Source of the DNA: an uncultured Roseobacter sp.
GTDB lineage: Bacteria; Pseudomonadota; Alphaproteobacteria; Rhodobacterales; Rhodobacteraceae
NCBI RefSeq assembly: GCF_947493125.1
Contig: NZ_CANLQB010000004.1
Span: 62,001 to 126,000 of the forward strand
Length of the DNA stretch: 64,000 nucleotides
Direction: 5' to 3'
A model generated the notes under the pieces. That model saw only the letters and a list, made by a program, of their open reading frames with translations, was not told the DNA's origin and made no database searches. The position numbers and the translations under genes were made by a program. Below, one piece after another: positions 35,614 through 40,635 of the stretch (its first letter is position 1; each line of letters begins with the position of its first letter).

Positions 35614-35757
35614 TCAATCCAGCGCAGCACCGATCAGGACCAATACGACGATGACTGCGACCGCAAAAACCCACCCGGGCGCGGTCAAACTGATGTCGGT
35701 TTTCAGCTTTTGGACGATAGTGTCGATCGACGTGGGCGGTCTTTTCTCATCCTGCAT
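35614..35757 (-). CDS. Small single-pass membrane protein, 47 aa
   Basis: A compact gene with AGGAG six bases before ATG 35757. The product starts MQDEKRPPTSIDTIVQKLKT, a polar helix-forming N-terminal half, and ends with one membrane helix (GWVFAVAVIVVLVLIGAALD). No family is recognised. The layout resembles small membrane proteins common in roseobacters. Its strong ribosome site and clean architecture support it as real although it is short. Confidence 0.72.
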   Translation of the reverse strand: MQDEKRPPTSIDTIVQKLKTDISLTAPGWVFAVAVIVVLVLIGAALD

Positions 35758-35878
35758 GAGGCATCTCCTAAATCTGACGGTTATGCTCAGAATTTGGGGA
35801 TGCCATCGGTTGTCTGCAATATTGCTCAGCGAATTTTCGATCACAGCGGATGTCAGAGGCGGAGAGACGCCGACGCCA

Positions 35879-37801
35879 TCAGTCCCGGGTCTTGGCTTCA
35901 AACCTCGGCAGCATCGCCGAGAAGTCCTGTCCCATACCACCTTCCTCCTCGACAAACTTGCGGTAGAGCTCCAACGCCCGCGCGCCCATCGGCGTATCCG
36001 CACCAACGGCCTCTGCCGCCTGTTGCGAGAGGCCCAGATCCTTCAACATCAACTCAGCGGCAAACCCCGGTTTATATCCGTTGTCGGCTGGGCTTTGCGG
36101 GCCCACGCCTGGCGCGGGACAATAGGCATTCATCGACCAGGAATAACCCGACGACGTGCTCACCACATCGAACATCTTCTGCCGGTCCAGGCCCAGTTTG
36201 TCCGCCAAGGCAAAGGCCTCGCAGGTGGCGATCATGGTGGCGCCAAGGATCATGTTGTTGCAGATCTTGGCCGCCTGGCCGGCGCCCGGCCCGCCGCAAT
36301 GCACCGCCTTCTGACCCATGATCTCGAAGAGCGGTTGCACCTTCGCGAAGGCCTCCTCCGACCCTCCGGCCATGAAGGTGAGCGTGCCCGCCGCCGCGCC
36401 ACCGATGCCTCCGGACACGGGCGCATCCACAGCCATCACCTCGTGCCCCGCAGCCTGATCCGCCACCGCACGGGCGCTGTCCACATCGACGGTCGAGCAA
36501 TCGAGCAGCAGCGCGCCGGGCCTCATCTTGGGCAGCACCTCGTCCGCAACGCGCCGCAGGATTCCGCCGTTGGGCAGCATCGTCACAACGATATCCGCGC
36601 CGTCTGCCGCCGCGGCCGCAGAGCGCGCCATGGTCAGCTGGTCAACCTGAGAGACAACCGTGTCGAACCCGGTCACATGGCACCCGGCCTTGGCCAGATT
36701 TGCAGCCATCGGGGCACCCATGTTTCCCAAACCGATAAAGCCGATCTTGAGTTGCGCCATATTGTCCTCCTCCAGCTGCAATCTGTGTTTTCCCAGCGGC
36801 ATCAGCATCTTGCTGACCGACGCGGCGGGCACCGACTGATCAGCGTATTGCCAGGCCGGCGTGCGGTCTTTGTCGATGATGGCGGCGCGGATCCCTTCCA
36901 GAAAGTCCCCCAGTTCCATGGACCGGTAGGTGAAGCGATACTCCAGATCCAGGGCCTTTGCGATGGTAAGGGAGGGCCCGCGCAAACGGTGCACGATCTC
37001 GAGCGTACAGGCCATCGACAGCGGGCTGTTGCGGTCCATCTGTGTCAGGGTTGCCTGGGCAAAGTCGTCCGTATCGTGCTGCAGGCTGTTGAGAATGTCG
37101 GAGAGGCTCTCGCCTCCGAAATGCCGGTCAATGTCGTGCTGCAGCCCTTCCAGGTGCCCGTCGCCGGGTGGTGTTGCTGCAGCGGTGACGCACTCGACAG
37201 AGGCGCCGCTTTCCAGTTCAGCAATCAACGCGGGCCAGTCGGACTCGTCGATATAGTGATCCGCGAACCCCGCATAAATCGCGTCGGCTGCAGACATGCG
37301 GGCGGCCGTGATGCCCAGATATTCTCCAACGCGGCCCGGTGCCAAGGCCAGCATCAGGGACCCGCCCACATCTGGGATCAGACCAATGCCGCACTCGGGC
37401 ATCGCGATCTGGCTGCTTTGACCGACAATGCGGTGCGATCCATGACAGCCGATCCCCACACCGCCGCCCATCGTGAACCCCTGCAGAAAGGACACGATGG
37501 GCTTGGGGTAGTTGAAGATCTTCGCATTCAGCCGGTATTCATCAGCCCAGAAGCGGCGGCCATAATCGAAATCGCCCGCCCTCCCAGTCTGGTACATGTC
37601 CGCGATATCACCGCCTGCGCAAAAGGCACGCTCGCCATCCGCATCCAGCACCACCTGGGCGACCTTGTCGTCGGCCCGCCAGCGCTCAAGCGCCGCCTCG
37701 ATGTCCAGGCACATCTGATAGGTCAGCGCATTGAGCGCGTCTGGCCGCGTCAGGGTGATACGGCCCGTTGAGCCAATGGTCCGGATGAGGATGTCGGTCA
37801 T
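35879..37801 (-). CDS. mmsB: 3-hydroxyisobutyryl-CoA hydrolase / 3-hydroxyisobutyrate dehydrogenase in one frame
   Basis: One uninterrupted frame of 640 residues joins two enzymes. Residues 1-347 are an enoyl-CoA hydratase-fold hydrolase of the 3-hydroxyisobutyryl-CoA type (RAFCAGGDIADMY, FTMGGGVGIGCHGSHRIV, AMPECGIGLIPDVGGS). Residues 348-640 are a 3-hydroxyisobutyrate dehydrogenase with the Rossmann motif KIGFIGLGNMGAPMA, DAPVSGG and GAGQAAKICNN (catalytic Lys). These are consecutive steps of valine degradation. At the junction there is no stop, yet a strong ribosome site and ATG for mmsB remain (36758-36773). Either a bifunctional protein or two overlapping products arise. Start ATG 37801 is preferred; GTG 37876 is possible. 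Confidence 0.9.
   Translation of the reverse strand: MTDILIRTIGSTGRITLTRPDALNALTYQMCLDIEAALERWRADDKVAQVVLDADGERAFCAGGDIADMYQTGRAGDFDYGRRFWADEYRLNAKIFNYPKPIVSFLQGFTMGGGVGIGCHGSHRIVGQSSQIAMPECGIGLIPDVGGSLMLALAPGRVGEYLGITAARMSAADAIYAGFADHYIDESDWPALIAELESGASVECVTAAATPPGDGHLEGLQHDIDRHFGGESLSDILNSLQHDTDDFAQATLTQMDRNSPLSMACTLEIVHRLRGPSLTIAKALDLEYRFTYRSMELGDFLEGIRAAIIDKDRTPAWQYADQSVPAASVSKMLMPLGKHRLQLEEDNMAQLKIGFIGLGNMGAPMAANLAKAGCHVTGFDTVVSQVDQLTMARSAAAAADGADIVVTMLPNGGILRRVADEVLPKMRPGALLLDCSTVDVDSARAVADQAAGHEVMAVDAPVSGGIGGAAAGTLTFMAGGSEEAFAKVQPLFEIMGQKAVHCGGPGAGQAAKICNNMILGATMIATCEAFALADKLGLDRQKMFDVVSTSSGYSWSMNAYCPAPGVGPQSPADNGYKPGFAAELMLKDLGLSQQAAEAVGADTPMGARALELYRKFVEEEGGMGQDFSAMLPRFEAKTRD
36758..36773 (-). 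promoter_or_regulatory. Retained internal ribosome site and start codon of mmsB
   Basis: On the minus strand GGAGGAGGA, CAAT, ATG. It is in frame with the upstream hydrolase, whose codons run through it as Leu-Glu-Glu-Asp-Asn-Met. This lets ribosomes start the 293-aa dehydrogenase on its own, whether or not the longer fusion is made. Confidence 0.75.
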
Positions 37802-37895
37802 GTGCGTCACCGCGCTGAAACTGTCCCCGGCGTGTATCGCTTGGGAGAGAGGGGCATTCAAGCGCAAGTCGCACACACCCTGCGTGCCTAGTCAG

Positions 37896-38244: not shown

Positions 38245-38967
38245 ATGGGTTTGAGAAAGACTGCGTGTGCAGCTCTGGTATATGCCGTTTGGACAGGTGC
38301 TCTCTCCGCCGCACCTGTCCACGCCTATTTCGATCTGGTTGGCCACCAAGGCCTGCAGGCCGCCGGCGATAGCCTTGAGTTCGAGAGCGGCGATCTGACA
38401 TTGTCCGCGACGGGCCATCTCTTGAATGACGATGGTTCCATCGGGGATATCCGCCGGATTGGCCAGTATGGGTATGAGACCGCTTGGGATTGGTCCTCGC
38501 ACTCCTGGACCGTTCAGGGCGGGGGGCTGGGCGTGACCACCGGCCATCGCGACTCGCATCAGGTCGATAGCCGCAAGGGCGACGAGGTGATCAAACTGTC
38601 GTTCAACAAGACGGTGACGATTGAACGCCTGTATTTCAGCCTTGTGGACTGGGACGATGATTTCGCCTTCTCGGTCGTGGATGGTGAGGATGCCGGGGCG
38701 TTCTATCCACATGTTGATATTGTGGGTGAAGGCTACGGATACTACGATTTCCACCAGGACTGGACCGGCACGATGTTCGGCATCGGTGCTGCGAACAGCA
38801 CCTGCCACAAGCGGGGCAAAACCTACAGCTGTGACAATTGGGACAACTTCAAGCTCAAGGGCGTGAAGGTTTCTTACGACGATATCTCACCCGTGCCTCT
38901 GCCGGCGGCGGGTTGGATGCTCATCGCCGCGATTGGCGGCATGGGGTTGATGCGCCGGCGCAAGTAA
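38245..38967 (+). CDS. VPLPA-CTERM sorted exported protein
   Basis: The 240-aa protein has a signal peptide (residues about 1-27, ending APVHA), a beta-rich domain with many Asp/Gly/Trp residues (HLLNDDGSIGDIRRIG, LVDWDDDFAFSVVDGEDAG) and two Cys (CHKRGKTYSC), and ends VPLPAAGWMLIAAIGGMGLMRRRK, a textbook VPLPA-CTERM tail. The Asp-rich segments could bind calcium. It should be exported and processed by an exosortase-like enzyme. It is the second such gene in the window but not similar in its body to the one at 30601. A triple TTAA array lies upstream. Confidence 0.88.
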   Translation: MGLRKTACAALVYAVWTGALSAAPVHAYFDLVGHQGLQAAGDSLEFESGDLTLSATGHLLNDDGSIGDIRRIGQYGYETAWDWSSHSWTVQGGGLGVTTGHRDSHQVDSRKGDEVIKLSFNKTVTIERLYFSLVDWDDDFAFSVVDGEDAGAFYPHVDIVGEGYGYYDFHQDWTGTMFGIGAANSTCHKRGKTYSCDNWDNFKLKGVKVSYDDISPVPLPAAGWMLIAAIGGMGLMRRRK

Positions 38968-39027: not shown

Positions 39028-40527
39028 TCATTCCATTGGCTTGAAATTGAACTCGCCACCTTCCTTGATGCCCGAGGGCCAGCGAGAGGTAACCGTTTTC
39101 GTGCGCGTATAGAACTTGAACGCGTCAGGCCCATGCTGGTTGAGATCACCAAAGACGGACTTCTTCCAGCCGCCGAAGGTGTGATAGGCGAGCGGCACCG
39201 GGATGGGCACGTTTACACCGATCATGCCGACATTGACACGGTTGGCGAAGTCCCGCGCCGCGTCGCCGTCACGGGTGAAGATCGCGGTGCCATTGCCGTA
39301 CTCGTGGTCCATGGCCAGCCCAAGCGCGTCCTCATAGCTTTGCGCCCGCACGGTGGACAGAACCGGCCCGAAGATCTCGGTTTTGTAAATGTCCATGTCC
39401 TTTGTCACATGGTCAAACAGGTGGGGGCCGACAAAGAACCCGTCTTCGTAGCCCTGCAGGCTGAAATCGCGCCCGTCGACCACCAGCTTGGCGCCCTGGT
39501 CGATACCGCTTTGCACAAGGCGTTCGATGTTGGCCTTGGCCGCCCCCGTGACAACCGGGCCATAGTCGATGTCGTTGCCCGCGGTATAAGGACCGACCTT
39601 CAGCTTTTCGATGCGCGGGACGAGCTTCTCGATCAGCCGATCCGCCGTTTCATCCCCCACAGGCACAGCGACGGAGATCGCCATGCAGCGCTCGCCTGCG
39701 GCTCCATATCCGGCGCCCACCAATGCGTCCGCCGCCTGATCCATATCCGCGTCCGGCATCACGATCATATGGTTCTTGGCGCCACCGAAGCACTGGACGC
39801 GTTTGCCCTGCGCGCAGCCGGTGCCATAGATGTATTCGGCAATCGGGGTGGAGCCCACAAATCCGATGGATTGGATCACCGGGTCATGCAGGATCGCATC
39901 CACTGCCTCCTTGTCGCCATTCACCACCTGCAGCACGCCTTTCGGCAAGCCCGCTTCTTCCATCAGCTCTGCGAGCATCAGAGGCACGGACGGGTCCCGT
40001 TCGGACGGCTTGAGAATGAAAGCATTGCCGCAGGCGATGGCGGGCGCGAACATCCACATCGGGATCATCGCAGGGAAGTTGAAGGGGGTGATGCCGGCGG
40101 TGACACCCAGCGGCTGGCGCATGGAGTACATGTCGATGCCGGGGCCTGCGCTGTCGGTATATTCACCCTTTAAAAGCTGCGGCGCACCGATGCAGTACTC
40201 CACCACCTCAAGGCCCCGCTGCACGTCACCGGCGGCGTCGGGCAAGGTCTTGCCGTGTTCGCGGGAGAGCGCCTCGGCCAGCTTGTCCATATCCCGGTTC
40301 AGAAGATCCACGAATTTCATCAGCACCCGCGCGCGACGCTGCGGGTTCACCGCGGCCCAGGCCGGTTGCGCCTCGGCAGCATAGGCCACGGCCTGTTCGA
40401 CTTCGGATCTCGAGGCGAGCGGGCACTTTGCCTGCACCTCTCCCGTGGCCGGATTCATCACATCCGCGAAGCGGCCTGAGGTGCCTTTCACATGGGCGCC
40501 GTTGAGATAATGGGTAAGCTCTTGCAT
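39028..40527 (-). CDS. mmsA: CoA-acylating methylmalonate-semialdehyde dehydrogenase
   Basis: The 499-aa aldehyde dehydrogenase family enzyme converts methylmalonate semialdehyde to propionyl-CoA at the end of valine degradation. Motifs: GITPFNFPAMIPMWMFAPAIACGN, GFVGSTPIAEYIY, the catalytic Cys in GYGAAGERCMAISV, and the family C-terminal FYTRTKTVTSRWP. ATG 40527 has GGAGGA upstream; further upstream frame is a shadow. It is transcribed toward the VPLPA-CTERM gene and diverges from a LysR regulator, with the preceding pathway enzymes 1.2 kb away on the same strand. Confidence 0.97.
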   Translation of the reverse strand: MQELTHYLNGAHVKGTSGRFADVMNPATGEVQAKCPLASRSEVEQAVAYAAEAQPAWAAVNPQRRARVLMKFVDLLNRDMDKLAEALSREHGKTLPDAAGDVQRGLEVVEYCIGAPQLLKGEYTDSAGPGIDMYSMRQPLGVTAGITPFNFPAMIPMWMFAPAIACGNAFILKPSERDPSVPLMLAELMEEAGLPKGVLQVVNGDKEAVDAILHDPVIQSIGFVGSTPIAEYIYGTGCAQGKRVQCFGGAKNHMIVMPDADMDQAADALVGAGYGAAGERCMAISVAVPVGDETADRLIEKLVPRIEKLKVGPYTAGNDIDYGPVVTGAAKANIERLVQSGIDQGAKLVVDGRDFSLQGYEDGFFVGPHLFDHVTKDMDIYKTEIFGPVLSTVRAQSYEDALGLAMDHEYGNGTAIFTRDGDAARDFANRVNVGMIGVNVPIPVPLAYHTFGGWKKSVFGDLNQHGPDAFKFYTRTKTVTSRWPSGIKEGGEFNFKPME

Positions 40528-40579
40528 CTGTGTCCTCCGCGATTTGACTGGCCCGGTCGGGGTCGCTTGCAGCATAGTC

Positions 40580-40635
40580 TTGCAAAAACCCGGGTGAAAG
40601 AGGGAAGCTGGCAAAGCTGTTTTGTGTTTTTGCAA
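40580..40635. promoter_or_regulatory. Spaced inverted repeat between mmsA and lysR-type gene
   Basis: TTGCAAAAAC at 40580-40589 and its exact complement GTTTTTGCAA at 40626-40635, 36 bases apart, in the 146-base gap of the divergent pair. The position, about 50 bases from the mmsA start and 38 from the regulator start, fits paired binding sites of the adjacent LysR protein. Confidence 0.6.

Follow-up and report, generated by a model that had tools for sequence, protein, structure and literature searches.

Gene fusions are often regarded as rare and nearly irreversible, and some bacterial genes have internal in-frame start codons that give C-terminal isoforms. Among the closest counterparts of the locus described here is the split pair found in related alphaproteobacteria, in which a 3-hydroxyisobutyryl-CoA hydrolase gene (PRK05617/ECH_2) is followed by mmsB. 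The window, i.e., the whole 64,000-nucleotide stretch of uncultured Roseobacter sp. DNA that was analysed, carries the same genes in the same order and on the same strand, with a Shine-Dalgarno (SD) sequence before mmsB, but without the stop codon that separates the two in the split pair. Its linker is resembled by the end of the hydrolase 4j2u_A (LTFEEES). Like other genes with internal starts, the window's gene would combine one reading frame with two starts and a nested C-terminal product; unlike in them, what is nested here would be the complete product of a once separate gene, MmsB.

Fusions of G6PD and 6PGL also join successive enzymes of a pathway and reportedly have several independent origins (PMC3148214), as does the fusion described here; the window's fusion differs in being bacterial, in appearing to revert and in keeping an internal start. 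Translationally coupled adjacent genes have the downstream start within ~10 nt of the upstream stop (PMC3711429), and many split relatives of the present locus similarly have the start close to the stop. An ATGA overlap of the hydrolase stop and the mmsB ATG was found in 31 of 53 split junctions with mmsB in another frame (e.g., L100–L123). The SD sequence of such ATGA junctions lies inside the 3' end of the hydrolase gene, so that acidic tails of the FEEE kind are its translation. Unlike coupled pairs, the fused gene lacks a termination event from which ribosomes could re-initiate.

No published description of this fusion was found in the open-licence papers searched. As a conserved and recurrent enzyme fusion with an internal start it is unusually labile, but it is no new kind of system. 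A single boundary has switched at least 8–9 times on well-supported branches (14 times on the best trees) with the start signal of the second gene retained, which provides a natural series for studying the coexistence of a fusion protein with a free subunit and any selection for joining enzymes that act in succession. Annotation as a single 640-residue protein would miss a second product if the internal start is functional.

Identity of the fused gene and its junction

The initial annotation had described a hydrolase of the 3-hydroxyisobutyryl-CoA type running in frame into 3-hydroxyisobutyrate dehydrogenase over 640 residues, and had noted that these are normally separate proteins for successive steps. 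The fusion and the assignment of its parts to families acting in succession were borne out by the minus-strand ORF (Table 1) and by the family models, which scored above their cut-offs. The hydrolase domain matched PRK05617 at residues 3–343 with 377.4 bits (curated NCBIfam cut-off 274) and, in agreement with this, the Pfam model ECH_2 with 359.8 bits (cut-off 27.2), while the dehydrogenase domain matched the NCBIfam HIBADH equivalog TIGR01692 with 366.4 bits (curated cut-off 291.6). The two halves aligned with 4j2u_A (residues 1–347, E 1.8e-115) and 5y8g_A (residues 352–636, E 6.9e-79), respectively. The ORF was the sole close match to either enzyme in its own genome, the 19 other matches being at most 36% identical. 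An in-frame GTG at 37876, upstream of the ATG, would allow an alternative reading of 665 residues, which is disfavoured because the alignments of relatives begin at the ATG at 37801. Judged by its sequence, the gene genuinely joins two enzymes that follow each other in valine degradation.

Residue conservation was assessed on an alignment of 45 fused proteins, taken from 49 complete ones by leaving out L012, L013, L021, and L025. All 45 shared E136 and D144 in the MPE...PDVGG stretch of the hydrolase domain, whose acidic residues we take to be catalytic. Likewise invariant were G357, L358, G359, N360, M361, G362, K512, N515, and N516 of the dehydrogenase domain, where functional roles presumably fall to the GLGNMG dinucleotide motif and to the lysine in GQAAKICNN, K512 and N516 being presumably catalytic. 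The AlphaFold2 model of the fused protein had a mean pLDDT of 85.6 and a pTM of 0.59, and makes no claim on how the two domains are oriented to each other. Values of pLDDT below 50 were confined to residues 345–348 (the linker), 552–573 (inside the dehydrogenase), and 635–640.

At the junction, the codons CTG GAG GAG GAC AAT ATG contain GGAGGAGGA followed by CAAT and ATG, and the complete ribosome site that had been noted there is indeed intact. The duplex energy of the window's internal SD sequence was −10.1 kcal/mol, scored, as were all duplex energies given here, against an assumed anti-SD sequence, ACCUCCU, rather than one read from this genome.

Table 1. Positions in the window of the fused gene, its parts and the upstream aldehyde dehydrogenase gene.
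Feature	Coordinates	Strand	Details
Fused ORF, 3-hydroxyisobutyryl-CoA hydrolase / 3-hydroxyisobutyrate dehydrogenase	35879..37801	(-)	640 aa + stop; ATG at 37801, stop ends at 35879; no internal stop (ORF reading)
Hydrolase domain	36773..37801	(-)	residues ~1-343; PRK05617, ECH_2
MmsB / HIBADH part	35879..36760	(-)	TIGR01692 match residues 355-631; domain ~352-640
Internal Shine-Dalgarno GGAGGAGGA	36765..36773	(-)	overlaps L-E-E-D codons; read from sequence
Spacer CAAT	36761..36764	(-)	read from sequence
Internal ATG	36758..36760	(-)	Met348, start of 293-aa free dehydrogenase reading; read from sequence
Aldehyde dehydrogenase, upstream of fusion	39028..40635	(-)	Aldedh PF00171, E 8.9e-138

Distribution and history of the fused state

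The fusions in the other 18 genomes of the genus had 72–80% protein identity to that of the window. The family was sampled by 295 genomes, nearly one per genus, of which 247 matched at E 1e-100. Counted among the matches listed, the fusion lacked a stop in 33 of the 295 genomes, representing 32 genera (31 full-length matches plus the partial matches G287 and G161, fused by their junction DNA), and 36 full-length in-frame pairs carried a stop. A comparison of the junction in related genomes, which the initial annotation had proposed, gave 50 fused, 37 in-frame-stop, and 28 other-frame junctions at 115 loci (L099 left out). With named and distant records included, 195 of 199 loci could be read, of which 61, 81, and 53 were fused, in-frame-stop, and other-frame, respectively; no hydrolase was found in the loci of L179, L186, L199, and L201. 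The junction counts do not include L002–L008, which are paralogues in the window's own genome.

Among named loci, 11 of 76 were fused, including those of Sulfitobacter brevis, an Ascidiaceihabitans, Thalassovita taeanensis, Marivita hallyeonensis, Thalassococcus profundi, Tropicibacter naphthalenivorans, and Maliponia aquimaris. Split records came from Ruegeria, Shimia, Phaeobacter marinintestinus, and one Sulfitobacter MAG (L178); Sulfitobacter is ranked in the Roseobacteraceae by NCBI. A search of the class (385 genomes) gave matches at E 1e-120 in 36 genomes from beyond the family, and none of the matches listed spanned both domains stop-free. The same held for matches listed outside the family in the phylum (398 genomes, E 1e-90), in searches that could miss a very diverged fusion. 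Among the 30 plasmid records listed of 107 matched, 29 matches were joined from two pieces, and the sole single-piece match had an in-frame stop at the junction.

The fused/split state changed 14 times on a FastTree of 166 rows, of which 9 changes were forced by starred (well-supported) branches; with shuffled labels, the mean was 48.8–48.9 changes. The rows of this tree had at least 48% hydrolase identity and came nearly all from the family, and the junction was excluded. Short rows (L093, L099, L106, and L204) and distant rows with less than 48% hydrolase identity were left out, and four added rows formed the outgroup, which is not clean since two of them, L094 and L097, are family members. 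A quick IQ-TREE of 145 of the 166 rows, omitting 11 near-copies and 10 of the 19 genus rows, also gave 14 changes, of which 8 were forced (shuffled mean 40.2–40.5). Support was weak for about a third of the inner branches.

On a fourfold-site tree, parsimony points to about 8.5 gains of the fused state and 5.5 losses, and in a two-state count this state was lost at 0.154 and gained at 0.132 per unit tree length. With gain and loss at such similar rates, it is uncertain whether the fused state is under selection, and its product may well not be. Stop gain in the linker gives no leverage as a neutral test, since stops are expected too rarely at the observed fourfold composition. Three-state parsimony gave about 5.9 gains of the fused state from the in-frame-stop state vs. 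2.2 from the other-frame state. Loss of the hydrolase stop codon, the origin first suggested for the fusion, is thus the commoner inferred route in the family; the fusion in the window's own lineage may have arisen by either. A fusion without a stop is what was seen; a recent accident in one genome does not fit, as the fusion is genus-wide and recurs in the family.

Internal initiation and alternative readings

The internal start was followed through 59 distinct fused junctions, i.e., the 61 fused loci after removal of the duplicates L137 and L145. In all 59, an in-frame start codon precedes the dehydrogenase fold by at most six codons; it is ATG in 57, GTG in one (L010), and TTG in one (L070). 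ATG was preferred over GTG and TTG in choosing the start, and the starts of L010 and L070 were picked by best SD sequence, which favours both rows. The mean internal SD energy was −8.04 kcal/mol, vs. −8.54 kcal/mol in 109 split relatives (p 0.11; the p-values given here are rough and overstate independence because the rows share ancestry). It compared with a mean of −2.44 kcal/mol for the 1445 remaining in-frame ATGs in these fused ORFs and of −5.02 in synonymous redraws of the same peptides, 57 of the 59 observed sites being stronger than their own redraw mean. The internal SD sequence was stronger than that at the aligned start of the hydrolase in 56 of 59 rows and was the strongest among the in-frame ATGs of the ORF in 40, another ATG being stronger in the remaining 19.

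The start codon lies two codons before the IGF motif of the Rossmann fold in 37 rows and five codons before it in 22, including all 19 genus rows. Those 22 rows carry a variety of residues at the other position (L in 10, T in 4, R, I, and A in 2 each, G and P in 1 each). Given the two distances from the motif and the variation at the other position, the methionine is not required by the fold, and a structural need for it was ruled out. As far as sequence comparison can tell, the conserved feature is the start signal and not a fold-required methionine.

Weak internal SD sequences were found in L011 (−4.0 kcal/mol), L045 (−3.8), L073 (−3.7), and L127 (−3.7). Together with L141, in which almost none is left, they indicate that the free dehydrogenase may not be universal. 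L141, an uncultured Marivita, is fused and keeps the ATG, with an SD energy of +0.1 kcal/mol; it may be an obligate fusion and offers a natural control. The fused ORF of L045 (G216), of 653 residues, has a longer and divergent linker.

The retained SD sequence and start codon argue that one ORF probably gives both a bifunctional fusion and a free dehydrogenase, made from the internal start, and of the outcomes raised in the initial annotation such a mixture is the best supported. Ribosomes starting at the first ATG would read through to give the bifunctional protein of 640 residues, in which the hydrolase domain would release 3-hydroxyisobutyrate and the tethered dehydrogenase would oxidise it. 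Other ribosomes would start at the internal SD sequence and ATG and yield the free dehydrogenase of 293 residues, and this extra dehydrogenase might adjust the stoichiometry or supply subunits to a dehydrogenase oligomer. Both products are probably made, and both domains are probably active. Against dual output, the internal site could be blocked by ribosomes elongating from the first start, and the fusion has given up whatever coupling through termination and re-initiation there was.

The SD sequence of mmsB lies in or beside the 3' end of the hydrolase gene in many of the split relatives. With the signal placed there, a single stop-codon change or a small indel can flip the state, and such easy interconversion would explain the many switches between fused and split. 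It is possible, if on balance doubtful, that the hydrolase–mmsB boundary acts as an evolutionary switch, at which tiny changes toggle between a coupled pair and a dual-output fusion, the latter being kept where a set ratio of tethered to free enzyme, and possibly mixed oligomers, are useful.

Near-neutral toggling of the stop, with nearly all dehydrogenase coming from internal initiation and the read-through product tolerated but irrelevant, seems rather unlikely, although several results are as it would predict. The 14 changes of state occurred at similar rates in both directions, the SD sequence is on average equal in fused and split states, and at the GC-rich fourfold composition in-frame stops arise rarely by substitution (0.7% per codon by a rough hand estimate), so that an open linker need not mean selection. 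The state is nevertheless clustered on the tree, with 14 changes vs. 48.8 after shuffling, though near kinship alone would produce clustering. In addition, ribosomes that start at the first ATG necessarily make the fusion, there being no stop in between, and this is unlikely to be without effect.

An obligate fusion, in which only the 640-residue enzyme matters (through channelling or 1:1 stoichiometry) and the internal SD sequence and ATG are leftovers, is improbable. Such a reading would fit the genus subtree, whose 12.6 substitutions per fourfold site include no break of the fused state, and L141 remaining fused without an SD sequence. It would also fit the three-state count, in which the fused state was left less often (6.05 exits over a tree length of 36.0 units) than the split arrangements taken together (about 32 changes over 64.2 units; binomial p 0.0055 with the counts rounded), but about 24 of these 32 changes turned one split arrangement into the other, a step for which indels beyond the stop are free, and by the two-state rates given above the fused state is not the more stable one. 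Leftovers should moreover decay, yet none of the 59 rows lacks a start codon and the mean SD energy is as in split relatives.

It is very unlikely that the SD-like codons act instead as an elongation pause that aids the folding of two domains: they stand exactly at the domain boundary, where the model predicts a low-confidence linker (345–348) between two mostly confident domains, but a pause leaves unexplained the start codon in every fused junction and its two positions relative to the fold. The probability of a sequencing or assembly artefact, or of a stop broken in a single genome, is negligible, given that the junction is open in all 19 genus genomes, the window's included, which excludes sequencing error, that 33 of 295 family genomes are open as well, and that the fusion also occurs in named records, among them Sulfitobacter brevis, Thalassovita taeanensis, and Tropicibacter naphthalenivorans. 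Dual output from a single ORF is the reading we prefer.

Gene neighbourhood

The aldehyde dehydrogenase gene upstream of the fusion, about 1.2 kb away in the window, is probably mmsA (methylmalonate-semialdehyde dehydrogenase), the next step of the pathway, a name we infer. At 11 of the 18 other genus loci, an ORF that shares the KEGGEF... type of C-terminus with the window's aldehyde dehydrogenase ends 64–145 nt upstream of the fusion. Outside the genus, 40 of 42 fused rows had an ORF with an acyl-CoA-dehydrogenase-like C-terminus (of the RVIVARDMLKNR type, judged by eye) that ends near the fused start.

Between the aldehyde dehydrogenase and the fusion, the window has an ORF of 240 residues on the opposite strand (38245–38967, plus strand), which had no Pfam match; its tail is of the VPLPA...RRRK type, presumably a sorting tail. 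Just downstream of the fusion, a short frame at 35614–35757 (minus strand, within the ORF 35614–36006) begins MQDEKRPPTSIDTIVQ... and has a hydrophobic C-terminal stretch; it could possibly encode a small membrane protein.
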